This document shows positions 42,577-64,000 of a stretch of DNA of 64,000 nucleotides, piece by piece. The notes under the pieces were generated by a model that worked only from the letters and a program-made list of their open reading frames with translations, had not been told where the DNA came from and did no database searches. How positions within the stretch are numbered: the stretch's first letter is position 1; each line of letters starts with the position of its first letter. The position numbers and the translations under genes were made by a program. Location: positions 12,089,201-12,153,200 of the forward strand of contig NC_092670.1 of NCBI RefSeq assembly GCF_964355755.1, read 5' to 3'. The stretch is from Antedon mediterranea. Lineage: Eukaryota > Echinodermata > Crinoidea > Comatulida > Antedonidae.

Positions 42577-45500
42577 TCAAAGCAATTTCTCAGTAATATA
42601 TTTCAAAAGTTGACGTTCATTTTCCTTATTATAGAAATAAAAATGACCACCGGGCATCGTTTGACTCTTGAACTCTCCGTTGGTGATCTTAGCCCAACCT
42701 TTAAAAACATAAATATTTATGTTGGATTAATATATAAAACCCTAAGGCAACAAGTTTAATCCAACTCGGAAATCAATATCTCTATTTTACCTATGTTTTC
42801 ACAATTTTTATTTAACTATAACTATTTTAAGATGGCAGCAAGTATGTTAGTAGTAAAAAAAATAATTTGTGTCTCTCTTAAATTATGCAATTTTAACGGA
42901 CAAAAAGTGATTTATTTTGATCAGTTTTAATATTTTTGTGGGTACTTCAGTAAAAAGAAATAAACATATACTAGTAAGGTAAGTGTAGTCTAGGTTCCAG
43001 ACGAATGACTTACTATTTGTAAAGAAGATCAACATTTTTTTTATTTTTTATACATAATACATGAGCTTGAAATAGTTAAGAAAGATTCTCATAGGGATAT
43101 CTACTTTGTTTACCAAACCAACTCAACAGAGGCCTACAATCTTACAAGTGTCAAAACCCTACTGTGCATAGTGAACTCATGGGCAACAGACATATCAGGC
43201 CCACTCAGCTGCATGATTTTTGTTAAGTGAGGGTTAGGCTAAGTTTATTTAGATGTTGGGTTGCTTTAGTTTGTCCTTTATTATCGTCTTATTCTTGTGC
43301 CCAATCATGTTACAATTACAACTACCACTTATTAGCACACCTCCACTCTCAGTAAACAAGTTATTAAAATTTTTACCAGCAACATCATGAGGCTTATCAT
43401 TGTCTCCATCTGTAAAACTCACAGGGCACGTCAGAGGGACACTATCTGGAAGATTATACCTGAAAAATCATAGAAATGCAAAGTTGTACAAGACTGGCTA
43501 TTCACACAGCAGCTGTGTGTATAAAAACAAAACATTGTATTAAATATTATGATTATGATAATGTGAAGGGTAAGAGGTTACTAGTAGAAGCAAGTATTAA
43601 GCACTGTCTACACTATGAAACTAGTTTGACTAAAAAAAGTGAAGTGCCCAAATATGGTAGTGATATGACATCATCATGTTCATATATGGGCACATCACAT
43701 TTATTTGTCATATAAAGTTTGATAGTGTAGACAGAAATTATAGTTTGACATAATGGCAAATAAAGAGAAAAAATGATGCTGCCATGTATGGAACATCAAT
43801 GACCTCATAAGGAGAGGGCATGGTATTGGAAAATAAACAATTTGTAAAGTACAAATAAAAATTAACAATACCTATAATGTGATACCATGTGAAAATCAGC
43901 CCTAAGGGATGGCATATACATTTTCATCAAATCACGGTTTTCTAAAACTTCTTGCGGTGTTCCACCGATTCGTTTAATATTTTCCAAAAATTCATCCTCG
44001 GGCATATTTATCCAATCGGTTGCAATTCTTTGTCCTGCAGACTAAAAAAAAAAAGAAGAATAAAATATTGGGTCAATTCTTCCTAAAGCAGACAATTAAA
44101 TAGATTCTTTTCTATTCTTTATTTGTATTCAGAAAATGAGATTATAATGTGGAAGTGTTTATGTCCAGGCTTGAATATATACCACATATTCAAAAGCAAA
44201 ACAAGGAGAGTCAACTTATGCCAAGTTTCTGATTATTGTGTTCCTTTATCAGTGGGAATTTCAATATTTCCATAACTAGACTAATCCAGCTAAAGTAGGT
44301 ATGACACACCAAGTGTAAAAAATGTTTTTTCTTTTACATAATATTAAACCAAATTGCTCTGTGTAGGACCTCGACTAACAGAAGACATAAACAACATCTA
44401 GATGGAAACCCAGGTTCTACTTATTTTGATCGCTTAACTTTAGTATTGTGGGTTTAGTTCCACAACACAACACCGTCACCAGCAGGAGACACCAATTGAA
44501 ACCATGAGGACATCATCAAACCATTGCTTAGTGTCTTGACCAAAGCTCTTACCTGAGGAGAGGTGAATCCAGAAACAAAGAGATGAACTGGTTCTAATCC
44601 ATAGTACTTCTTCAGATACAGAGCAACTTCGAATGAAAGAACAGATCCCATACTAATAACATTTAATAAAACATAACACCACATATAATTTTAACATCAA
44701 AGGGTTGAAGGTAAATAAAAAACATCAAAAACGAAATACTGGACTGGAGAACTATTCACTTAAATAAGTTTTTTTTTAAAGAGCTGTAAAGCTCTGTTTA
44801 CACTATCAAACTTTATGTGACAAAAAAATGTGATGTGCCAATATATGGACACGATCATTACCATATTTGGGCTCTTACTATTTTAATAGTGTGGACAGAG
44901 TTTACCTATGACCGAAGAAAGCAAAGGGTTTTGATTGAAACTTTGGAAGGAGTGTGTTAGCAATGTTAGCTACAGTTGTTAACATATCACCACATGGTTT
45001 GTCATTCAAACGAATCTCTCTTCCCGCTAATCGAACTGCACATACTATAAAATAAAAACAGATATTTAATAATTATGATATTTCAATAAAACGTTATTCT
45101 TTATGTATTGTCTGATATTTAATTGGTTACAAATGTGAGGGCAGTATTTTGAGTTTTTTTAATTAAAGTTGTATTGTCCCTTTGAACACAAAAAATGAAG
45201 GTCAAAATATTCTAAATTTAAATTGGCCATATCAAAGTAATATTAAAGTTATTCACTTTAAGTTAAAAATTCGAGCCAAAAACAACAAGTTTACGTAATT
45301 AACAGGTAAATTAGTTTGATTAAATTTCGTCTGGAAAATCATTCCGAGCGAAAGTAAACAAAGATTTCAAACCACGAGTATGAATTATGCATGATATGCT
45401 AATTAAGATTGTTTACAACTTGTCACGGTGGTTGAGGAGATGTTTTTACACATATCGCGCGATCGAGAGAGGAAGTTTTATGATTATGCATATAATATAG

Positions 45501-48500
45501 CCAAACTGTACGTAACGCGCGCCGCCGGCGCGGCCGGCAGTGTATGCCTAGGCCTAGTTGCGGAACGAATTTTGTTTTAATGTATTCAAGAAACCCATGG
45601 ATTTATCGGTAAATATATTACTATTTTTTACTTAGTTTCTCTCAAATAAAATGTATACTTGTGGCCTAGTTTAGATACTCTAGGCTACTACTACTAAGCC
45701 TAGCTCTAAGCTGTAACTTGCACAGTACCTACCTATAGGATAGGCCTAGCCTTCTACTCTAGCCTAGGCCTAGGCTACTCTAGGTAGGTAGGTCTACCTT
45801 TCAGGTTCACGTTGTCTTTTTATTAATATTAGGCCTATGCTTTAGACTCATTTTTAAGTATTCGTTGGCTACCCGTATTAATTTTTGCCAGGTCCGATCG
45901 GTTCATCATTACTAATTATCGAGTATAGGCTAGTAAAATGTGCCCAAGTTAGCCCACTGTACTGGCAACTGATTCGTCATTTTGACGATAGATGCCAGTT
46001 CTATTTTTAAAGACTAGCCTATTACTAGTAGTAGTAGCCTAACTATTGAATTGTACTGTGTATAAAAAGAAATACACTAATCATATCCATGGGATTTTTT
46101 AATTAGAAATATGTTACTAATAATTAATACTATAATTTCCATATACAATATATATAAAAATCTATAGGATCTGTGGTTATTTACTATTTTTGTGACAATA
46201 CTTTTAAAAATATTCGCAACTAATTAGCTTCACTGTTAATGTTACTTGTCAATGGACCAGTAATACATAAAGGTAAAAAGATATTGTGAAACCTGGTTCA
46301 ACATTTGAAATTCTGGTGGCAAATGGCAAAGATTCCTCACGATAAATATTTCATATTTCCATATTTAGCAGTAAACAATTTATAACAATTTTATTTTAGG
46401 TTAAAATTAATGCATTGACAGAGGTAGAGGCTAAAGACCTACTAACTAAAGGAAGCAGCAGAGAAAAAGTACCAGAGGGAGGTCATCATTCTGTACCACC
46501 AGCAACTACACCAAGTTGGTGTGTTTGCAACAACTGCTGGCAAATTCAAACTGAAAATGAAAGAGTGTTCTGTGGCTATACACACGAAAACACAACAAAT
46601 TTCAGGTAATTGCACGTGTGAAACATTACAGTATATTAATTTAACATACTTATTGATAAAATGCATTACAATGATAAAGTGTCGATATAGTGTATCTAAA
46701 AAAACACAAAAAGAATTGTCTTTTTGTCAAACTAATTTTAAAAGTTCTGCTTTATTTTTAATAAGTACTGTTGTTAAAATACAGACCTGTTACCAGCTTA
46801 TATTATTTTGAAAAATAGTGCATAACATAAACTAAACAAAAAATACTAAATAAACATTTTTTTTTTTCATTTTAGGACTTTTAGTTGCTCATTCTAAATG
46901 AAGCAATGTTGCAATTGGCACGAGCCTATCATCAAGATATATTAGCAGCGCCTATGGACAACAAATGGAGTAGGGGTCATAAACATACAGCCTACCGGCA
47001 GTATGTTTTGTGACCACATGGTCGTCTCGGTATTGGCATCAGAATATAATACCCAGTTGTGTATGGGCAGTACGGGACAAATACCCCGATGCATTTGGCC
47101 AGTATGTTGGTTTTCAACCAGGACGAATTTAAAGATGTATTGTCCCTTTGTACAATTCCCACAAATAGATTTCCAAATTTAATTGCTCATTTTAGTACCA
47201 TAACAGAAAAAAATAAATCATTTTTAACTGAATACATTAAAAACTTAACAGGAATTGCCCAGTACTGTTTGCACGAATAGAAAGGTAACTGATACATCAT
47301 AGTTTTTTTTTAAATCTTGACAATTTCTCTTCAACTAGTTGATGAGTTGGTAATGCTGGTACTGAAGCAATGTTTCTGCTGAGCCTTCTTGGGTCATCTT
47401 CTCCTAAGCCTGTTACTGTTTTCAGGCTAGTTTCATCAAGTAGTCTTCTGTATACAACCATTTCCACCAATTTCTGGATGTAGCTGTAATCCTTTTCTTC
47501 TTTAACAGGCACCACTGTCCACCTCTTACTTTTTTTGTTAAATAAGCGTTGATATCTACACAACAGAAAATAATTGTTTATAATTTTTGACAGCAATTTG
47601 GAATATTTTGCTTAGATTGCAATTCGGGAAAACCGATTTTAAAATTAATTGTCAAATTTCTTTTGCCCATATACCTGTAGCTAGTTCCATGGTAACTCCG
47701 TTGTACATGGCATAAAGATACAATTGATTTAAGAATAGACTTGTCGGTTTCATATGTAGTACGGTATTTAGTAATTAATATAGCCAATTAATATTCAACT
47801 GTAAAAAACTATGGAATGTACCTTGTGGTCCCATCTTTATTTTTCTTGATCTCTCGTTGATGGTTTGCTGTGTAATCCAATGCTGCCAGAAGATTCCTTA
47901 CTTTGTACATTGGTGGACTGTAATGGAATCTTTTGGCCGCATACATCAAAATACATTGGTGGAAATTTTCCAGTTCAGCAGTTCCACTAAAAATACACAA
48001 TATGTATATATAAATAGCTAAGTCAATACTGTTGTCAAATGCAATAAAATATGCAAGTTTTAAAGTAATACTAATAAATGTGTTTATTATGTGTATATTG
48101 TTCTGTTGAAATGTATATTTATTGTTTAGAGCACCTGTTTTTTTTTTTTTAGCTTTAATCAATACTACAGAATATGCACAGAAATGCTTGTACAGTATAA
48201 ACCATTCCTCTATTTTTAATCAATTTGCTCACCGAAAATTAAGCCAATATGGGATTTTCTTTAGAAATCTGTTGTTTAGGACGATCTTTCGTAGTGCATT
48301 GTGCGCTGGATGACCCTTTGTCATCCATCCCTTTTGTCTCTCGCTCTCAAGAGGTCTATGACTACAGGAGGCTGTACCAACATCACTATATGATAAAGCC
48401 CACTGGTGTTCATCCACCACATGGTGAAGAATTCCACACCATATTCCCTATCATTGAACAAGAAAATCAGTAAAATACATATCTCAAATACAGATTTCTT

Positions 48501-51500
48501 TTTTTAAATATGGAAAAAATGGATACAATATCAGATACACACAGAGATAATATGACAATGTCAGTATCTGAAGATAGCTGTGAGCCTTTAAAATTGATGA
48601 ACATAGTAGAACCAGAATAAAGAAATTAATTCCACAATAAAGAAGATCTTGTGCTAAAGTTTATGTTCAAGAACAATATAACTTGTCTTTGAGAGTGTAT
48701 ATACAGTATGTGCATCATTAAATTAAAACATGTACATACAAGAAATTCATCATATGTCTTTGAAGTCTCGCAGGTATGCCAGAAATGGTTTACAATATCT
48801 TTGCTCCAACTTAATAAGACTTTGCAGTCTTTCTTCTGACCAGCCTGTTAAATTGTATAAAAAATACCAATGAAACAAAAGATTAGTATTAATTTGTATA
48901 ATAAATATCCTATTTTACATATTATGAAATTAGGGTATAACTATAATAAAATAATTTACATTGTCTGCAAATTACCAAAAAACTTACTGCAACCAATGCT
49001 TTTGCTAGATTCTTGGCAGCATGCCAAATATTGTGTGAGTGTTTGATGTCTGGATATTCGTTTTCTAGAGTGATGAAGAAAAACAAATATAAAAATAAAC
49101 CATATTTTACAGAATAAAAACATGTTAATCAAAAATTTATTTTAGATTTTGGTGATCATCTAGAATTACGATGTAAAAATAAAACATACTCATCAATGCG
49201 CCAATCTGTAAGTGTGCATCGGTTACACATTCAACTACATTCACATTTTGTTGTTTGAGAAATGAAACACTCTTCTGAAATCCTACTTTTTCCATTAAAG
49301 TACTTTTGCCCTCTGTCTCCCGCTTATCAATTGTCATAATTGACAAAATACTTTTGTCAGCATTGTCCATCATAGTATACGTGCAAAATTGGGCAGAGTG
49401 TCCTGGACTGTCCATCCTTCCATCTCCTATGAAAAAAAAATATTTACAGTAATAACATTCTTGTACTGTATATAAGTAGATTTGTACCTGACCACCACTA
49501 AAAACAGTTTTTAATAGAATTTCTCTTCACTATAACTCGTCAAAAACAATATTAGCGTTTTTCAGTAATTTAGTTCCATCCTGCATTTTCATTTGCACAA
49601 TGAAGCCTTGACCTATGAACTTTAGTTTAGTCACATTTATTTTTTTTCCATACACCTCCATTTTATATTATAATACCTACCAAGCAGTACAACATCTTTT
49701 CCTTCATGTGCTGTCAAGATTTCTTTCTGGGTATCTTCCCATAATTCAGTAACTGCAGGCACAAGATATTTTCTCTGAATTCTATAGTAGGTGTTGACAT
49801 TCAGAATATGAAGTTTTAAAAACTTGGCCAGAAGAGCAATCTTTGCATAGTTGTTTCCAGAAGCTAAAAGTGCCGTAGACATTAACAAATCCCCTCCATG
49901 CAATTTGTTCTTTAGAATTGGTAGAGAACACCATTTGTTGTTCAGGTGGCCATTTGTACAAATCTAAGTAGATCACAATAATATATTTATTAAATAAACC
50001 ATTAAACCAATTTCATAAAATAAGTCATTTGACAAGCTGAAACACATTACATAGCAACCATCATTGTTTGATGGTACCATAGACTTGTTCATAAATTGGT
50101 TTCAGGAATTAATTAGAATTATGAATTATTAAATTAAGATAAAATGTTTACAAAAATTGAAAGTAAGACTTTTTACCCATTTGAAATACACAGCAGAACC
50201 AACAAACTTTGAATGCAGATCAACAGGACTACTACAGGATTTTCTAGTACAAGATTTGTTGATTTTGATTTCTGCCAAGGTTTTCAAACAGTTTAAGTAC
50301 ACTATGCAGGTTTCATCTTTTATAAGAAAGTCAGACTCTTCCATAATATCAATGTGTTTAACATAAGGGCTTTCAACTTCCACACCTTCAATGTCCTCCT
50401 CAATCTGACTGGATGGATCATCATTTTCTGCCTCAATTTCAAATTCCTCTTCAACGAATGAGGTTTCTCTGAGGTTAAGTGCATTGTTGGGACTGAAAAA
50501 TGTATGTATGACTTAATTTCAAACATTAATTTTTTTTTAAATGATGCTTTACTGCATCACAATAAAGTTTAGGTTAAAGGAATAGATGATGACTTACCAA
50601 AGGCTTATGTCAAATGATGGTTCATATAAATCATAATCTTCATCTTCATCACAAGTGCTCTCTGACTCAGATTCACTTGACAAGTTAATGTCAATGGTCA
50701 TACTGAAAGAATAATAGTAATACTTGTGCAATGATGTCAACCTCTTAATTGTGTGATTAGAAACACTAGCAATCGAGGGGGAAAGGATTTTAAACTATGT
50801 AATTAAAATTAATACATTGTAACATATAAAATGAAAAGTATACAGAATTCATTTACTTTAATATTTCAGCAGAGCATCTGGGTCTGTCCTCTTCTTTAAT
50901 GTTGCTTATACTAAAAAAATAACAGTTTTAATGCCATTTTATTTCTCAATAACAGTAATCAGATTGGCATAGTGTATAAAGAGTGCAGGGTATTATCAAG
51001 CCACAGACAAGGATTTTGCTGTGTTCATTCCATTGGAATTAAGTGAAACAGAAAAGTTAAAGCGCTGCAATTTTAGTTTAAACTTACCTTCCATCTTCAG
51101 AAGCACTTGGAAAATCTATCAATTCCAGATATTGAAGAAATTCTAAAGAACAATTTATGATCGATGACAATTTCTATATTTTTTAGTTATATTTGTAGAG
51201 TTCCTATTGAGAAGTCAGTTAGTAGTGAGTGTTGAAGCCATGTAATCATGAGTGTAGAAAGCAACCGTTCACTATGTGAATCCCATGTGATCTAATTTAA
51301 GTACGGTATTAATATTATTAGTAATATATTTCATAACAAAATTTGTATTATATCTAAATTTTCATACCTTGTATCTGAACCACCAGATAGTGTAGTTCTT
51401 AAATAAGCACCTTCTATAGGCGTCGATGTTGTAGGAAGGTGAGTAGAAACTGTTGTCCTGGTCGGCCCAGAAGCTGTGCTATGTCTTTCTGCATGACTAA

Positions 51501-53213
51501 ACGTAAAACAATAAAGCACAGTGTGAAGAGGTATAGAATAAGGGAAAACAATTTTACAATTTAAATAAAAAAAAAAATTAATATACCAAATCATCAAATT
51601 AATACTGTACTAAAATTGACACTGGCTAGCCCTAGTAATGTAACAACAGAGGAGGTACCAAAGTTAATTCCCACTCTAGCTAGGAAAATAATTATTTTAC
51701 TAGCCCTGTTTGTGAAGGCCCTCACTACCAAACAGATGGTATTGTAATCAATTATCTACTTAAAATTCCAAGTCAAATGGTTAGGAGGTAAACCTTTTCG
51801 TCATGGGTGGCCAATTTTTTTATTAAAAAAAAATGGTAGGACCTGTGCTGTGTGTATGTTCAGCTAGGTAACCGGATCTATGATTTTAATTAGGCATAGG
51901 CCTAGCGGCTAGCTATTCTATGCTAGATTATATATAACACTAACACTAAAAGTATACTTTCTGTCTCAAAATACCTGCTGTACTACGAAAGGTGTGTTGT
52001 ATTACTCTATCTACCTAGGCCTATCAATCCGCCTGTTTTCGAACGATTCATCTAATTGCAAAGGTAGGCAGGCCTAGTAGTAGTAGTAGTATAGGCTATA
52101 TAGTAGTTAGTATAGATAGGCTAGCTAGGCCTAGCCTGCCCTGGAGGTCTAACCTAACCTATTTATTATTATTAGTATTATACTAAATTCAAAATTATTA
52201 GGCTATCTATAACTCTGTGGAACTATAGTACCAATAATAATAATTATCATTACTTACTAGTATTGCCTATTTTACTAAATAAAAGGCCCTAACTAATCCC
52301 TAGAGCCGATGGACACTGTACTATTTCTAAAGAGAGAAGTTACCTGTCAAGCAAAAAATTTGCAACATCAGAATTACTTGCTAAATTATTTGCTTCTTTT
52401 ACTACGGACCATCTCTGAAATGTATCGAAGTTTAGCAAAATTCTGCGAGCATTTGACGCTACATTACGTGTAAGTTTGCGCCTTTTCTTTTCCGATGATC
52501 TCAATCCAGAATAAGGGCCTCGTTTACCCATCCTTTACCACGGGTTCGTCTCTCTCGTGATGAACGATGATAATCAACTCACACGTGTGTTCTCTTGCGG
52601 TACGTACAGAAATAAACAAGCCAAAAAAGGAGTCGTATGCATAATTCATTAGCAAGCGCGTTGCATTATGGGATATGTTTTGATCGAAAACTTTGACTGG
52701 AAGTCACAGTTTTTTTTTTAACAAAAAACCGTTTGTAATTCAGTTGAATGATTTTTTTTTCGACTAATTTTTATTGAAAGTTAAATTACTATTATGATAC
52801 TTCAAATTGACCCATTTTTTTTCGAAATCTGTTATTTTTTATTTTTTTGGAATTAGTCAAAGGGACAATACATCTTTAATATTTGATAAGATAGTAAGTG
52901 TAAAATGTTAGACCTTCTAGTCTCTAGATTATCATTTATTTTTGTGTAGAGGCACAAGAGGCTCACTAAAGTCAAAATCTAATAAGCCAAATGATCCGTA
53001 TAAACACTGGATATGCTAATTATTCTGAAGTCTTATCCATTTCTTGACTTTATTGTTATTGCATGACCTGTGATCTTTCGTACCTTCTATGGAGTCAGAT
53101 AAAGTTTTAGCCCAATTTACATAATAATTTGTTCCACCTCCAGCCCACGGAAAGCAGAATAAACGAAGCTGAGAATTTGGTCGTGTATGGCGACAATTAA
53201 TCATGCTCTCCAT
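42577..53213 (-). CDS. OLAH: OLAH-like medium-chain acyl-ACP thioesterase (type II), complete
   Basis: Type II thioesterase of the alpha/beta-hydrolase fold, which releases medium-chain acyl groups from fatty acid or polyketide synthases in the cytosol. Exons: 53084-53213, 44906-45044, 44553-44652, 43872-44041, 43377-43459, 42577-42698; phases join to 247 residues (human OLAH about 265). Motifs: LRLFCFPWAGGG near residues 17-28; AVRLAGREIR; nucleophile elbow GHSMG with Ser90; candidate Asp201 in GDNDK; catalytic His226 in MPGGHFYFY. The start follows a TTTAG acceptor one base before the ATG, so an upstream non-coding exon is likely; a GATAAG/GTAGGT donor near 53,662 is a candidate. The first intron is about 8 kb and contains a complete TTAA-flanked transposon on the same strand; the exons are intact. 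A polyketide-synthase-linked thioesterase cannot be excluded. Confidence 0.9.
43597..43740 (+). mobile_element. GCTCTGTCTACAC MITE, copy 4
   Basis: TTA duplications at 43,597-43,599 and 43,738-43,740 enclose AGCACTGTCTACACTATG on the left and GATAGTGTAGACAGAA on the right. It is in the OLAH-like intron between exons 4 and 5. Confidence 0.85.
44787..44908 (+). mobile_element. GCTCTGTCTACAC MITE, copy 5, touching an exon edge
   Basis: The left end is AAGCTCTGTTTACACTATC; the right end is ATAGTGTGGACAGAGTTTAC. The right end overlaps the splice donor of the OLAH-like exon 44,906-45,044: the element terminus supplies the intron's GTAAAC donor on the minus strand. Confidence 0.7.
45597..47132 (+). 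pseudogene. Decayed gene for a P2X7 C-terminal (ballast) type cysteine-rich domain
   Basis: A candidate first exon (45,597-45,608, MDLS) follows a GC-rich patch and joins in frame to 46,400-46,605, which reads LTEVEAKDLL and then WCVCNNCWQIQTENERVFC, matching the WCxCgxC-P-E-CC start of the P2X7 cytosolic ballast domain. The downstream part (46,876-47,132) reads LNEAMLQLARAYHQDI, then AYRQYV, PHGRLG, IPSCVWAVRDKYPDAFGQYV, the domain's closing block. Lesions: in-frame TAG at 46,882, TGA at 47,011 where the family has Trp, and a frameshift near 47,048. The junction between the two exons does not keep phase. The expected stop is TAA at 47,130-47,132. In P2X7 this region binds zinc and guanine nucleotide and acts cytosolically; free-standing versions occur in many invertebrates and are uncharacterised. 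Confidence 0.72.
47129..47151 (+). repeat. Internal copy of the transposon terminus with TTAA
   Basis: TTAA (47,129-47,132) is followed by AGATGTATTGTCCCTTTG, identical to the right end of the element over 18 bases and in left-end orientation. It separates the ballast-domain relic from the transposase gene. With the right end at 52,875 it could delimit a shorter, transposase-only element of about 5.7 kb. Confidence 0.85.
47297..52531 (-). CDS. Kolobok-like DDE transposase, 13 exons, apparently intact
   Basis: Exons: 52344-52531, 51411-51496, 51088-51142, 50857-50910, 50598-50702, 50177-50492, 49681-49963, 49190-49426, 48988-49064, 48740-48844, 48233-48447, 47822-47986, 47297-47555; 714 residues. 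The stronger donor for exon 2 (end at 51,368) breaks phase with exon 3; the weaker GTGCTT donor at 51,410 restores it, so that junction is uncertain. The N-terminus is basic (MGKRGPYSGLRSSEKKRRKL), followed by an acidic middle. The core has NTALxASG-type STALLASGNNY, TYYRIQRKYLVP, GDGRMDSPGHSAQ (Asp364/368), VECVTDAHLQI (Asp432), HSHNIWHAAKNLAK, ASCSHRPLE and RGTAELENFHQCIL (Glu578/580), candidate DDE residues. No THAP zinc finger was seen, though many Kolobok proteins have one. No stops in the assembled frame. Confidence 0.83.
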
Positions 53214-54679
53214 CCTAAAAAAAAATATATTTTAGTTTTTACAAAAATAAAATGTATTATAATTATTAATATTAAATTTATATATTAAATTAGGCTAGGT
53301 CTAAGTATGCCATGGGCAAACTCATACAATTATATGTCTACCTAATTTAGCAATAGAACCTAATTTCGCGTGACACCGGTGAGGGGGAAATCCCAGTGAG
53401 ACACGCACCCAGTCACACTTCCGACAGGGCGCAGGAGGCCAGTAGCCAGGCTCACAATATTAAATCACAGATAGCTTGGAGTAGAGGCCTAGCCACATTG
53501 TAGCTTCTATCTAGCTGCTTAGCTTAGCCTATACATAAGAATCGAATGCTGTTTCGTCTCGCTTTTTCAGAGATAAATCACAAGTAACGTAAAATTAGCA
53601 AAACATTTATGCTTAAATAAAGAAATAATATCCTAAAAAGCTTAGGCCTAGGCCTACCTACCTTATCAACATAAAACACTCAACAACCAGTGCAGTATCA
53701 ACATGTTTTTGTTTAGCGCCACCTATAACTACTACTTTTTACATAAACTTTCACAACAATGAGGAAATTATTTATATAAATATTTCTAATAAAAAACGCC
53801 GCTTGACATTTTGACGTGTCATTAAAGGATGTTTTTAAAAATTGATATTCTATTTAATAATATAAGAAATAATGATTCATTATCGTAAATTGTATTTGTT
53901 TAACAATCAGCAGGCCTAGCCTAGTAAACATTTATACATCTCATAGACTCTGTTCTCACAGCTCTGGGGTTTGAGCATGCCCAGTCCGAATATTCGTAGT
54001 AAACAATAAGCTACCACATATTATGCTAACTGTTTCCTAATTATTCCGCCGTTCTCTTGAATATAGCCTAAAGGAGCGGCGCAATCATTTTTATCTGTAC
54101 ATAATATTTATATATATATATATATATTTAGATTCAAATTTTAGATTGTTCAATTTGATGCTGCGCAATTTTTAAATGTTTATCTTTGTATTTTATTGTT
54201 TACTTATGTTCAAGTGCAGTATATGGAGATCCATCTCAATAGTGCTTTGCACTCATGGCAATCCTCAGGGTGCTACACCGCTGTCTTGTTGTCATGTATT
54301 TTTGTGCCTGAAAATTGAATAAATAAAATAAATTAAAAAATTAGTATTTTAATAGATTTAATAACCTCTTGAATATAACTGCCTAAAAGCGCCCGCGACA
54401 AAATATATACAAAAATGTTCATCCTAGAATAAACTAATACGTCCAAGAAGAGCAATAATATCATGACGTCATTTAATTGGATTTTCTTTTTAAATTAAAA
54501 GACAACATAAATGGTTATCCAATAAAAATGTTTCTAACGTTTTACTTAGAATTTTCTCTTTTTTTGTAAAATTCATGTTAGTGCCATAATAATTTTAATT
54601 AAAGCTCATCTCCATTTCGTAATTACCAAATCTTGTCATCGTCAAATTAGATTCTTTGTTTTCAATATTTTAATATACG

Positions 54680-55200
54680 GCTTTACCACCACGTTGAAAC
54701 ACCGGTTCTCGTCAGATCACCGAAGTTAAGCAACGCTGGGCCTGGTTAGAGCTTGGATGGGAGATCATCTGTGAATAACGGGTGTTGTATTATGGAGCTG
54801 GGGTCCCGTTTGGCATTTGAAATCAGCATTGCTGACTCGTATGGCAGCCCTGAATCTAGTATCTGCCTCAGACGTATTGGCCCATGCCTTTCCTCTGCTG
54901 GTCAGGGTGGACACTGGACGAGAGAAGCTCTTAATCAATGTTAGGACCAATCAAGGTGCTTTAAATAGTTCTGGCTTTGTTTGTATCAAAACCTGTTTTT
55001 TATTGAAAAAAAAAAGCCATGACAAAACACTATATTTCATGTTATGTATAATTTATTTGTATTTTTCTTGTATATGGTTTTATCTTTAACTGATTGTATT
55101 GTATGGAGTGAGTGCAGAATCTGTTTGGGCTTTAGCCTATTCTCATTCCTGGTTATTTTTACATTGATGACCGAATAAATATTATTATTATTATTATTAT
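54680..55200 (+). mobile_element. 5S rRNA-derived SINE (SINE3 type), about 520 bp
   Basis: 54,680-54,791 is a 5S rRNA-like head: CCACGTTGAAACACCGGTTC, GTCAGATCACCGAAGTTAAG, GGGCCTGGTTAGAGCTTGGA and CGGGTGTTGTA. It covers the internal RNA polymerase III promoter. A unique body follows, then a LINE-like tail ending TGACCGAATAAAT(ATT)n at 55,185-55,200. Divergence from 5S at the 5' end and middle (for example ATCATCTGTGAATAA) and the attached tail argue against a functional 5S gene. Target duplications not identified. Confidence 0.85.
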
Positions 55201-57846: not shown

Positions 57847-60800
57847 TCAAAGCTGCGTGCCTATAGCCAAACCTTTTGGAATGATCATACTGTTTTTATG
57901 TTTAACGTCCAAGCACAATTCGTCTGATAAAGATGTGTCATCCGTTTCTTTAGTCATAAGTGCAGAGTACTCCGTATCTCCATCTCCGACGCAATCGTCA
58001 GCAGGCCGTGGTTCAGCCTCGTCTGTAAGCCTATTCTGCAACAGTGCTTCCTGTTCGTCCTCCGGTTCTGAAGATTCGCGACACTGCTCTTTATTTGTTA
58101 AAATATCTTTTTCTTTCGACGGCGTTAAATTTATTTCTACTGCTTTCAATCCAGAATCATTCGATTCACTATATGTTGGTAATTTATTAACAGATCCATT
58201 GTTAGACACAACTTTCAGATTTTGATTTGTATCTGGATGTTTCTCGTGGTAGACAACGGAGTTCTCAGATTTGCTGTACGAGTTCTCTTGTCCAGTGCTT
58301 ACCTCAGATATGGACTCAAACCCTGGTTTAGTAAAGCACTTCTCACTGGTAATACCATCTAACGAACTTTGGCGTGTACTCGCGTCAAAAGAATTCGCGG
58401 TCATCATATTATAACCCTCGTTCTTTTGTGTCTTGGTGAAGTTGCAACAACCGACTTTTGAATTATTCCTTGCCTTGTCGAAAACAACATTATTGTCACC
58501 GTTGTGTTTGGCGTACATAGCGCTAACGATACTGTTTTGGCGGGAATGAGACCCGCGTCGCGATACTTGCCGAGTGGGCAACGACTGCTCCTCTCTCCAA
58601 TGATGAATTTTTCGTTTGATTACCCTTTTTACCTGACAAAAGATAAAGAAGACATGTATTATTACGGAAGGATGGTTTTGATTTGGGGACATGTGAAATT
58701 TGTGTTCCTGCGCCCAATGTTGGCACAACATGGTAATTTACAATTTCTGTAGACGTGTGTTTCTTCAATCTTGTATATTATACTATGAATTGAAAATATC
58801 GCGGAACATTCTCACTTATCTCCAACACCCCCAGGCAACCACATGAACATCTGGCAATAGTAAATCTAGCTTAGTAATCTTTTTTGTACTTGAAGTACTT
58901 TAAATCAAGAAGTAAAGTTTAAGCACACAGTGCTGATATGAAGTACAACCTTATTATTAAGGGAACCATTCAGGACCAAACAAAGTCTACCCTACGAAGT
59001 TTTTACTAGCAGTGGGTGTTCCTAGAATATGGGTTGGCTAAAGTTAAATCATGTTATTAGCCTTCGTTCGTTTCTCGGGAAGTGTCCTATTAATGGGTGT
59101 CCCCGGGGCTGTCCCACACCAAGGTTCTAATGTAGTTTTGCAATAACTATGCCTTACCTCTTGGTTGCAAAAGACATATATCAAGACGACAAAAAAGCCC
59201 TCAAACGAATGAAGCAAAGCGTTACTGATAACCACGGATGGATGGTTACCACCACCAGTATTGAAGACGTAAACAATTCCAGTAACCCCAAGTAGCGGTA
59301 AGAGAAGGACGATGCCACGTAAAGCTTTCCTGAAACGACAAATAACAATTCATCGACAAGTTAGGTGATCTGACAACAAGCGAAAGAAAACAATGGCAAG
59401 TGGTGGTCCAAACCTCCTCCAGTCTCAGTCCTTGGTCTAATTTATGTCCTTATTGTGTTCCTTGATAGGTTCACGTCCCGATAACGCGGTATTAGTTTTG
59501 ACCAGACATTCCAATTTGGAAAAATGAAATATCGAGGGCGCTGTAACAATGCATCAAACCATAGAGGGCTATTATAATCTATAATTGTAAACATGGGTAC
59601 TGATGTCTGGCGTAACCTTATTTCACTTAATAAAAAACGCATGAGTTGTGTAGGCCTACAGATATTACTACTGTATGTATTAAATTCTCTCGAGTAAATT
59701 TATACATAAATAAATCACGGAGTTTTTTTTGGTTTATCCAAAATATCGGGATAAATTGCATTGTAGCGGGAGAGCGGGTGATGACTCGAAATTTAGGGGA
59801 TGTTGACACCCTTCGGTCGGCACGTCGAGTCAATATCCATGGCCTCTTTCGCAAGATTGGCGTCATCGGTACTATACCAGTCACTACCGGTATCCAGAGG
59901 TTCTCCTATTGGTCGGATTGGTTAATCAAGAAGTAAAGAGAAGTATGTCGTCATAGTTGATGTGTATTATGATTCAATCAATACATACCTGTACTGTTTG
60001 GTTTCAAACGAATGCGATGCCTTAAGTTTCGTCATTAAAATGAAACTAATGTGAAATAAGAAGAAGCAATTCGTCTGTAACACAAAGAAATAAACATAAT
60101 AATATATAGAACAATATTTATATATTACATTATTGTTTTTTGTAAACTATCAACTCCAATTGATTGACAATGACAGTTATTTAAAAGAATTCAGATGGAT
60201 CTGTATGTGGCATAGGCTAGGTAACAACGCTACTGCCTAGTTCACATTTACTTACGTATACTACACCATGGAGAAAAAAAATTGTTCCATGGTTACGTCA
60301 GCTACTTACTCCGTATGTGTGATAACAAAGTGAGAGGGAATGGACTGAATTGACACCTGTGTAACCAAATAAGCCTCACCATTGCGTACGCTACACATAA
60401 CCTTAGACTTGCCGTAAGTCTGTAGTTTATTGGTTTATGTTAGTCCACCAGTCGGCGTTTCGATTTTTGTTCTGAATACTAGGAGCTCATGTATTATACT
60501 TATGAAACGCCATATATGCCAACATATTTATCTTTTTACTAATTTCGGTCTAGAACCAAACAACACATAACACCAACTGCACAATATAATTATTGTTTCT
60601 GTATTCAAAATTGTAAAACTTTACTTACCACCAATATGGCAATAACTGGTCCAACAAATATGAATTCAAGGTATTCAACAGAGCCCTTTATGGGTTCACC
60701 ATTGTCGTCATACAGGTCAGCCCCAACAGATGCCCAACATCTGCAATAAAGAACATAATGGAGTATAAAAGGAGGTTTCAAGAAGTCTCTTAAAACTCGC

Positions 60801-63800
60801 AGGAGTCTGACTAATGTTTTCCCACTCGCTGGAAAAAAGCCTTTATCCAAATGCAACTAACTAAAGCTTGGTATTATACGCAGAGCACGAAAAAAAGTCG
60901 AACATAATAATCAACTCTCGCTTGTGATTGGTCAAATTAAATTGCGCATACGTCCTACGTTGCATCACAGCTGGAGCCATAATTTAAAACAACGTTAGTC
61001 AAGTTTTGATAACTTATTCGCTGCAACAAAAAAACTGAATTAATTTTTATTCTTACCCTACGCCAAGTTGAAGTTCACATATTGCATAAACAATAGTAAT
61101 TATTAACGGAATTCCTGAAAATACAAAAGAAATTAATTAATTTTGTTTATATTATTTTTTTCTTTTTATTTTGTTTACAGTTTTTAATTAGGTGTCGTAA
61201 CAACAATTTCTTAAGTTAATGCGTTCTATAATTAATGCAAAGTGCCTTTTGTTTTTTTGATAGTGTGTAAAAATACATGTTACATGATTCATGTACATAC
61301 AAAGTTGTATATTCTTACCCCATCCAATAAGACAATACTTGATAATCGTCATTTTCTCAGGTTTCAGGGCCATGACAACCAAAGTATACAAGTATAGTCC
61401 TTCGACAAACATCCAGAAGAAGTTTGTACATTGAGCGTATATGATCAATGTCATCAGAATACGACATACAGTCTGAAAATTAAAGAAAATACTATGAAAA
61501 AATCCACAATAGAGATACAACATAGATGCAGAAACATACATAAGATAACAACACATAAGATATTCCACTTAATAAAACGTAACGACAAATTTGCATGATG
61601 GGAAGAATCAATACTGCACCACGTATGTCAGGACTTTTTGTATCAAAAACAAGTCAAATTTGTAAAAAACTAATTAAAATATTTTACTTACTAGATTATC
61701 CAAACTTTTCTTAATCATCTGATGGTTGCAAAAGAACATTATGTAGAGAAAGAGGAAACTTGCTATGAAATTCCAGTGAATATAATTCCGAAGACATCTC
61801 AAACTCCTACAAAACAAATGAAAACATTTTAAGAGTTATATGGTAATAGAACCCGCGCTACTATTGGATGATCTTGACTATTGCTCTTTCTTGGGTTGAG
61901 AAAACTGTGTAAATATACACACCAAACTATACGAATTCAACAATGAAATACATCATTATGTTTTTTTCCTGCAACCGTTTGAGAAATTGGATTCTTTTTT
62001 TTAACGGTTTGATAAATTAAAGATGTTTGAAATTATTGTACTATAATCAATACTTCTAATTTGCTTTGTGAATTATTTAATTATTATCCTACGGTAGAAT
62101 AGACAAGGTGATAGAAAACAGTTTGGCTATATAGTGATGTAGATCGGCTAGGGATAAGAAGAAACTGCGAAATAGTAACAGCAATGGAACGTGTAATTAA
62201 TTCATAACTAAATTCAATATGTATATTTATTTCGAGACCGAAAATAAACTAAATTGAATTTAATTATTTCTTTCACCACTTGATAATCATAACACTTTTG
62301 TATAAGCAGTCCACCATACGTTAGAAATGTAGTTAGAAATGAAAATAAATAATTAATTAAAGTAGATTTGAGCTTTTTACGAAGATAATTGCTCGACCAA
62401 GAACAAATTAATAGCATTAATTAAATTAACATCACTTACTTGAAAGATAAGAATATACAGAATGCGATGACAAGAGAAACAAATGACAACGAATAGCCAG
62501 CGTATAGAATGACGGTAGCTATGTCCAAGTATACGGCACTCTGAAAGAAAAAACACAAGAAAACAATGACACTTACAAAATAGACAGTTTTAATACAGAA
62601 ATTAATATGGTACGATATAATTATAAGTAACGCTATGCATGCAATTATCTTTTTTTTTAATAATTCTAAAATTAAAATACAAACCACAGTAACAGCCTGG
62701 CAGTTTGTGTAATTAGCTTTATTTGCCCAAGTGCCATTCAAATAACAATTCCTAGTCACCTCTGAAATAAAAATAAAAATTCCCTCAATATTATATTTGT
62801 GTTTTCTGTCCCTTACACTATTAATCCGACAAACTTGGTCAACCTTATTATGAATAAAAAGTTCATTCATTCATTCATTTTCTTTATTTCGGATAGTACA
62901 TCATATACAAATCAAACAAAAACAAAGAGAAACAATTTATATAAAGAGAGAAGGATCAGATTATGTATCGATCAGAGATAAAACGTACATTGTATCTTGC
63001 CGCCAACGAGTTAAACAGAGGGCAGACCAAGAAAATCTTTTGTTAAAACACGAATTTTTACGGCAATTCAGATATTGATCACAGTTTTGTAAAAACATGA
63101 ACATTATTGACCACAGAAGAGGTGCTCATATTTGCATATTGACTGCCAACATTGGCATATTGTACAACAGAAGATACATGAGAGTCGTGATTGGATTGTT
63201 GGAGAGACCAAAGCGTACGGCCTGCCTACCTGACTTGTATGCGACGCCATTCCAGACTCTTGGGCATTTCAATCGTACTTCACCAGGAGGGCTTGGAGGC
63301 CAACATGTGATATTGTCATACAAACTTGGACAGTAACGACCTAAGTATGAGAGCAAGATGATGTTACCCGTTATGTATCTGACCACAGACGCCAAAGTGT
63401 TAATCTTAATTTCCAAAACAAAGAAAGTTATGGTAACATATTCATGGAAGAGGTTATGGAACCTCCCCACCACGACTCCAATTAAAGACCCATCTTCAAC
63501 CTATTTTGATCCATGTCCATACTTAAATAGCGCCCCTATATATACTAATTTAAATCACAATATTACAGGCCTCCCTCCGATTACTTATACTTTTACAATC
63601 ACTACCTTCGGTTCCGTTTGGCTGCATATCTATTAGGTCTTGCTCTTCATATATTTTCCACAATGTGCATGTTGTAAATTGGGCATTCTCGTCTTCTGGA
63701 TGTAAGTTCTCTTGATCTAAATATGCCTGTACAACCGGAGCTAGAACTTCCACAGTATACTGATGATCATCGAGTATATCCGATGTTTCATTATCGTAAT

Positions 63801-63885
63801 CCGTGGGTGCCGTGAGTAAATCCGAGACATTGTATTCACCGAATGTACCATCAGAAGACAAGGCGATAGTGATAGTTGCAGCAAT
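57847..63885 (-). CDS. Class B1 GPCR, CRF/DH44-receptor-like, 5' partial
   Basis: Peptide-hormone receptor of the secretin family, expected at the plasma membrane coupling to Gs. Exons: 63606-63885, 63230-63340, 62685-62761, 62440-62540, 61692-61806, 61319-61472, 61057-61114, 60629-60740, 59989-60074, 59158-59329, 57847-58632; all phases join to 683 residues. The signal-peptide exon is beyond the window. The hormone-binding domain has six cysteines (TTCTLW, RYCPSLYDN, ITCWPPSP, KCPRVWNGV, RNCYLNGTWA, YTNCQ). TM landmarks: SLRCLRNYIHWNF (TM2), TNFFWMFVEGLYLYTL (TM3), GPVIAILV (TM5), ILMTKLKASHSFETKQYRK (ICL3), LLPLLGV (TM6), HSFEGFFVVLIYVFCNQE (TM7). ICL3, TM2 and hormone-domain wording resemble CRF receptors more than calcitonin or PTH receptors. 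The C-tail is long, about 260 residues in one exon, Ser/Glu-rich. Confidence 0.82.
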
Positions 63886-64000
63886 CTGAAATATACAATG
63901 CAACACATTATGATTAGTAAAGAAGGCAAAGCTTATCACGATTGCTGTATAACAAATAACCATACACATTTTAACTATACATACACACTCACTGTTAGCT
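63886..64000 (-). other. Upstream intron of the CRF-receptor-like gene
   Basis: The acceptor is a TATTTCAG immediately above 63,885. An open frame continues upstream (MCMVICYTAIVISFAFF near 63,969) and looks signal-peptide-like by hydrophobicity. Because a good acceptor intervenes it is treated as intron, but read-through from that Met cannot be excluded. Confidence 0.4.

Follow-up and report, generated by a model that had tools for sequence, protein, structure and literature searches.

A broken ballast-domain gene in a crinoid genome, probably the KolX gene of a Kolobok transposon with two genes

A relic of a P2X7-type ballast-domain gene in the genome of Antedon mediterranea is, with a probability of roughly 0.92, KolX, one of the two genes of a Kol0-type Kolobok transposon. 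The relic lies in the window, by which we mean the whole 64,000-nucleotide stretch of DNA that was analysed, within a 7,709-bp Kol0-like DNA transposon (45167-52875) that has TTAA flanks, AG...CT ends and further copies elsewhere in the genome. Within this element, KolX, on the left and in plus orientation, converges on a DDE transposase gene, on the right and in minus orientation. The Kol0-type assignment is based on TTAA, the AG...CT ends, the DDE residues and KolX. The first-pass annotation had seen the domain as cargo carried or picked up by a transposon. Rather, it is one of the element's own two genes and no recent acquisition, and therefore the likely direction of transfer is from transposon to host.

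Three stretches remain of the gene. A possible exon 1 (45597-45608, +) consists of a start codon and three codons followed by GT; it was assigned by eye, and its letters were checked. Exon 2 (46400-46605, +), whose splice sites were also assigned by eye, carries the WCxCxxC zinc-ligand motif in the form WCVCNNC. Exon 3 (46876-47132, +; limits by eye) encodes the C-terminal half of the ballast domain, including the stop codon, and contains YRQYV, GRLG and IPSCVWAVR. Both the WCxCxxC opening and the YRQYV...GRLG...IPSCVWAVR block had been reported in the first-pass annotation, which also proposed a comparison of the relic with profiles of the domain. Exon 3 is disrupted twice, once by an in-frame TGA and once by a frameshift of 2 bp.

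Taken separately, three pieces of the relic score 19.4 (exon 2), 11.6 and 21.0 bits against the Pfam model PF20478 (P2RX7_C), all below the cut-off of 23.5 bits; the window's two matches in a genome scan with the same model (20.2 and 14.5 bits) are below it as well. A read-through protein, in which the pieces were joined manually, with the stop replaced by X and without a few frame-shifted residues, matches P2RX7_C with 55.8 bits (E 7.5e-15; model positions 70-192 of 192). Such joining favours the relic's ballast match, and the piece-by-piece scores give the cautious side. A phmmer search of PDB with the read-through protein returned P2X7 sequences only (four distinct; best E 1.9e-7). These sequence matches identify the relic (about 46400-47132, +) as the broken remains of a ballast gene and as a homologue of the P2X7 ballast domain. 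The P2X channel part was not found in the read-through protein, where P2RX7_C was the sole match; the element has a transposase instead.

The limits of the element are marked by TTAA target-site duplications at 45163-45166, where homology among the copies starts, and at 52876-52879. Directly inside them are terminal inverted repeats at 45167-45185 (+), starting with AG, and 52857-52875 (-), which pair over 19 bp with one mismatch. Counted with the TTAA, TTAAAGTTGTATTGTCCC at 45163 (+) pairs with the minus-strand motif at 52862-52879. The end motif TTAAAGNTGTATTGTCCC has three exact matches in the window compared with 0.45 expected at up to three mismatches, and three were reached in none of 100 shuffles. 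The AG-type TTAA end-pair score of the element is 16; this score did not exceed 8 in any of 100 Markov shuffles or 7 in any of nine window tiles, and pairs of any type reached up to 9 (shuffles) and 10 (tiles).

The sequence from 45167 to 52875 was searched against the whole genome (354 Mb in 18 contigs), with 40 of 1,652 first-look candidates scored. Two uninterrupted full-length further copies were found on C3 and C2 (98% identity), and four more are complete yet split into two or three pieces (C5, C2, C9 and C4; 97-99%), the right end of the C9 copy being ~28 kb away. A truncated, partly inverted copy is present on C8 (L007; 92-94%). TTAA precedes the left end in all seven of these other copies, and homology starts exactly at this TTAA in four of them and 1, 7 and 16 bp earlier in three. 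Beyond those 1-16 bp beside TTAA, the flanks of the seven copies do not resemble the window flank; the exception is L007, whose flank gave two repeat-like matches (76 and 83%). The segment is a repeat family with dispersed copies. Short non-autonomous derivatives, in which the left 340 bp (45167-45506) is fused to the right 223 bp (52653-52875), occur at many genome places; in the scored rows, their left part is 87-89% identical and their right part mostly 83-92%. The idea that the ballast domain travels in a TTAA transposon whose ends are of the Kolobok type is supported. Elsewhere in the window, outside the element, there is a 5S rRNA gene (54673-54793, +; 68.4 bits), and several open frames at 57847-63969 (-) resemble, by eye, exons of a membrane-receptor gene.

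The conserved exons of the DDE transposase (47312-49963, -) were located by tblastn with five exons of the sister family F1 (L008). The homologous exons, at 49963-49679, 49427-49191, 48447-48247, 47979-47818 and 47548-47312, are stop-free and 67-87% identical. Open frames at 50132-52534 (-) are probable N-terminal exons of the same gene, with a predicted exon structure. By eye, two catalytic D residues fall in the exon at 49427-49191 and the E in that at 47979-47818, and the acidic residues are common to the window family and F1 in the homologous exons. Between the second D and the E, again by eye, another family, F2, has CNLH and the window family VDEH, in which only the H of C/DxxH is conserved. 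None of nine transposase pieces from the window family matched a Pfam model. The transposase cores of F2 and F5 gave sub-threshold matches to MULE/ISL3, and that of F5 also to two DUFs below threshold. THAP domains are present in the transposase genes of F2 and F7 (67.5 and 60.1 bits).

A terminus-like stretch that is not an element end lies inside the transposon at 47129-47206 (+); the TTAA at its start overlaps the stop codon of KolX. Earlier, the relic had been described as flanked by two transposon termini; the one at 45163 is a real end, and the one at 47129 is internal. The motif at 47129 has the same strand as that at 45163 and thus cannot close a unit starting at 45163. Moreover, homology among the copies continues through 47129, and the stretch 47129-47206 is present in all eight copies. 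A small transposon closing at this point was rejected, because the copies run past it. A host ballast gene captured by such a transposon, with ends at 45163 and 47129, would account for the TTAAAGATGTATTGTCCC motif directly 3' of the ballast gene. Nonetheless, this origin is extremely improbable, given that the two motifs are direct rather than inverted, that every copy found extends through 47129, and that the pair of ballast gene and transposase recurs, almost always convergent, elsewhere in the genome.

In inverted orientation, the 18-bp motif at 47129 is identical to the right end, and the first 78 bp from this position match five other genome places with 75-77% identity. Both observations would fit a composite, in which an inner, transposase-only element (47133-52875) acquired KolX as an outer segment and, with it, a second left end. 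However, the eight full matches to 47129-47330 all lie within the long element, and the inner element alone was not found. Furthermore, F1 and other families have KolX beside the transposase tail, so KolX looks ancestral, and a composite history is very unlikely. The DNA match to F1 (L008) stops at the internal stretch. This stretch is probably a fragment of a related element that was acquired before the family's spread.

Most ballast-domain loci of this genome are transposon genes. A genome search with PF20478 at E up to 10 produced 112 matches, merging to 100 loci; by hand count, 84 matches exceed the cut-off singly and one jointly with its neighbours. The 106-aa transposase core of F2 produced 66 genome matches, merging to 53 loci. 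A ballast locus lies no more than 6 kb from 40 of the 53, against a chance expectation of about 0.18 pairs. The two genes are convergent in 39 of these 40 pairs. Because many pairs are copies of the same family, the 40 are not independent events. For the other 13 transposase-core loci, no ballast match falls inside this 6-kb distance. Counted from the ballast side, 40 of the 100 loci have a transposase core exon within 6 kb, a further 45 were assigned by hand as element-family copies or as carrying other transposase traces (including 19 loci of F4), and 15 are tied to no element.

A search with transposase peptides found traces at 26 of 31 tested ballast loci: 22 of 23 in a set read at E up to 0.001, and four of eight in a set read at E up to 0.01, whose hits were at 4e-4 or better. 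At three of the 26 loci with traces (L016, L024 and L050, of one family), the trace consists only of a THAP match, and host genes can carry THAP too; four of the 23 loci (L009, L012, L013 and L044) were themselves sources of the query peptides. The eight-locus set was limited to 4.3 kb, such that a distant transposase would be missed. None of six window control tiles had traces of the same peptides. The tested loci without a trace are L010, L046, L048, L049 and L053, of which L010 and L046 are, at the DNA level, copies belonging to families F3 and F11. The F3 copy at L010 (L010:3818-5656) is 1.84 kb long and has KolX and TTAA/AG ends with no transposase trace; another F3 copy, L021, has one. 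L053 (C8:3535500-3539799) is a decayed ballast exon, one of three neighbouring matches on C8, with no trace in 4.3 kb. Copies that hold domain and transposase together, which the first-pass annotation had suggested looking for, do exist.

Both TTAA/AG ends were located for seven ballast-bearing families, namely the window family, F2 (L009 and its relative L019), F3 (L010 and L021), F4 (L011 and L017), F5 (L012), F7 (L013) and F11 (L016). TTAA is present on both sides in the nine fetched copies of the six other families, and AG...CT termini are found in these nine and in the window element. For F1, F8, F9 and locus L018, one end only was found, and for F6 and F10 none. The end-pair scores are 10-77 for seven of 21 fetched loci and inside the control range for 14. 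The score of 10 for F3 and F11 is near control, and the ends of L010 (score 7) and L019 (score 6) were accepted because they are homologous to those of their own family, not by score. Thus, the expectation that other ballast copies would reside in elements with Kolobok-type ends holds within this same genome.

The in-frame TGA and the frameshift are common to all seven copies that cover exon 3, which indicates that KolX was broken before the family's last spread; the C8 copy L007 was omitted from this comparison because its exon matched only in part. The KolX frame of F1 is uninterrupted over the part of exon 3 that was read. Between the window family and F1, two of three transposase pieces entered the comparison and have dN values of 0.114 and 0.165; the values for three KolX pieces are 0.156, 0.13 and 0.384, the cysteine-rich piece being the least conserved. 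Silent sites are saturated in both genes, and therefore a dN/dS ratio cannot be given. As read from these protein-level distances, both KolX and the transposase were constrained before the KolX break.

Family F4 is 3.1 kb long and accounts for 19 ballast loci. Two examined copies retain only the C-terminal transposase piece, and one has stops upstream in KolX. Among 17 KolX sequences of F4, 14 nonsynonymous and four synonymous changes were counted (pN/pS 1.0; two-sided p 1.0), where coverage in most sequences extends to about base 290 out of 324, and insertions or gaps relative to L011 (in five of 16 sequences) were excluded. In this small sample of 18 changes, the pattern looks neutral, as under drift. 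Selection keeping KolX in F4 is unsupported at this pN/pS. The open-frame KolX stretches of F2 and F5 match PF20478 with 67.5 and 45.1 bits. A search of viral contigs for relatives of the F2 KolX gave five pattern hits, none of which was confirmed.

The transposase presumably cuts and pastes at TTAA, and KolX may be an accessory factor that helps it, stabilised by zinc and possibly binding guanine nucleotides, as does the P2X7 ballast. Intact relatives could supply KolX in trans, in which case copies with a broken KolX would still spread and KolX would drift where most of the transposase has been lost. We offer this trans-acting role tentatively, at less than even odds; spread after breakage may equally mean that KolX is dispensable. 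KolX might also be a passenger that has no role in transposition and is retained by its position near one end. The spread of the window family with a broken KolX, the neutral-looking KolX of F4 and the abundance of short derivatives without KolX all agree with a passenger, but most KolX pieces are little changed as protein relative to F1 at saturated silent sites, and F2 and F5 retain open KolX frames, which makes a mere passenger unlikely.

With KolX acting in trans, elements with a broken KolX and transposase-poor KolX derivatives (the 19 loci of F4) might have been moved by the proteins of intact relatives, scattering ballast exons, although we regard this as doubtful. If true, such transposase-free scattering would be a route to repeated capture by hosts, as in P2X7 and nanor. 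The near-identical open-frame families F2 and F5 provide material for testing the role of KolX.

The connection between KolX and the ballast domain, which the first-pass annotation had ranked as the window's best candidate for something undescribed, is already present in Kojima & Bao 2022 (PMC9587614). According to that paper, KolX in the Kol0 lineage adopts the ballast fold of P2X7, P2X7 is proposed to have arisen by fusion with KolX, and nanor is also derived from KolX. Among the open-licence papers searched for Kolobok together with P2X7, it was the only relevant one. New here are the count-based association of ballast domain and transposase in one genome, the convergent arrangement, and the evidence that elements can go on spreading with a KolX that is broken or drifting. 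The association counts independently confirm that the ballast loci of this genome are mostly transposon genes, which bears on the origin of the P2X7 tail and also on the work of Rump et al. 2020 (PMC7016195).

The type element of Kol0 is Kolobok-1_XT (PMC9587614). Like Kol0 as described there, the window element has a TTAA duplication, 5'-RR ends, a DDE transposase and a second protein with a ballast domain. Unlike Kol0 as described there, the window family has a KolX that is broken in every copy covering exon 3, and the window element has an extra internal terminus-like stretch. The THAP domain in the transposase genes of F2 and F7 may be a further difference. With KolobokP, as that source presents it, the element shares the Kolobok superfamily and TTAA, but the terminal direct repeats of KolobokP, which are 450 or 660 bp long, are absent from it; a His-Me finger nuclease gene is another mark of KolobokP. 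A self-comparison of the whole element gave a sole plus-strand match of 26 bp, between the left end and 47129, and no long direct repeats. Finally, the relic shares with the P2X7 ballast (PF20478; PDB 6u9v and 8tr5) the cysteine pattern and the YR...PSC...R...GF block. Unlike P2X7, in which the ballast accompanies a channel, no channel part is seen here, and the ballast gene belongs to a transposon.
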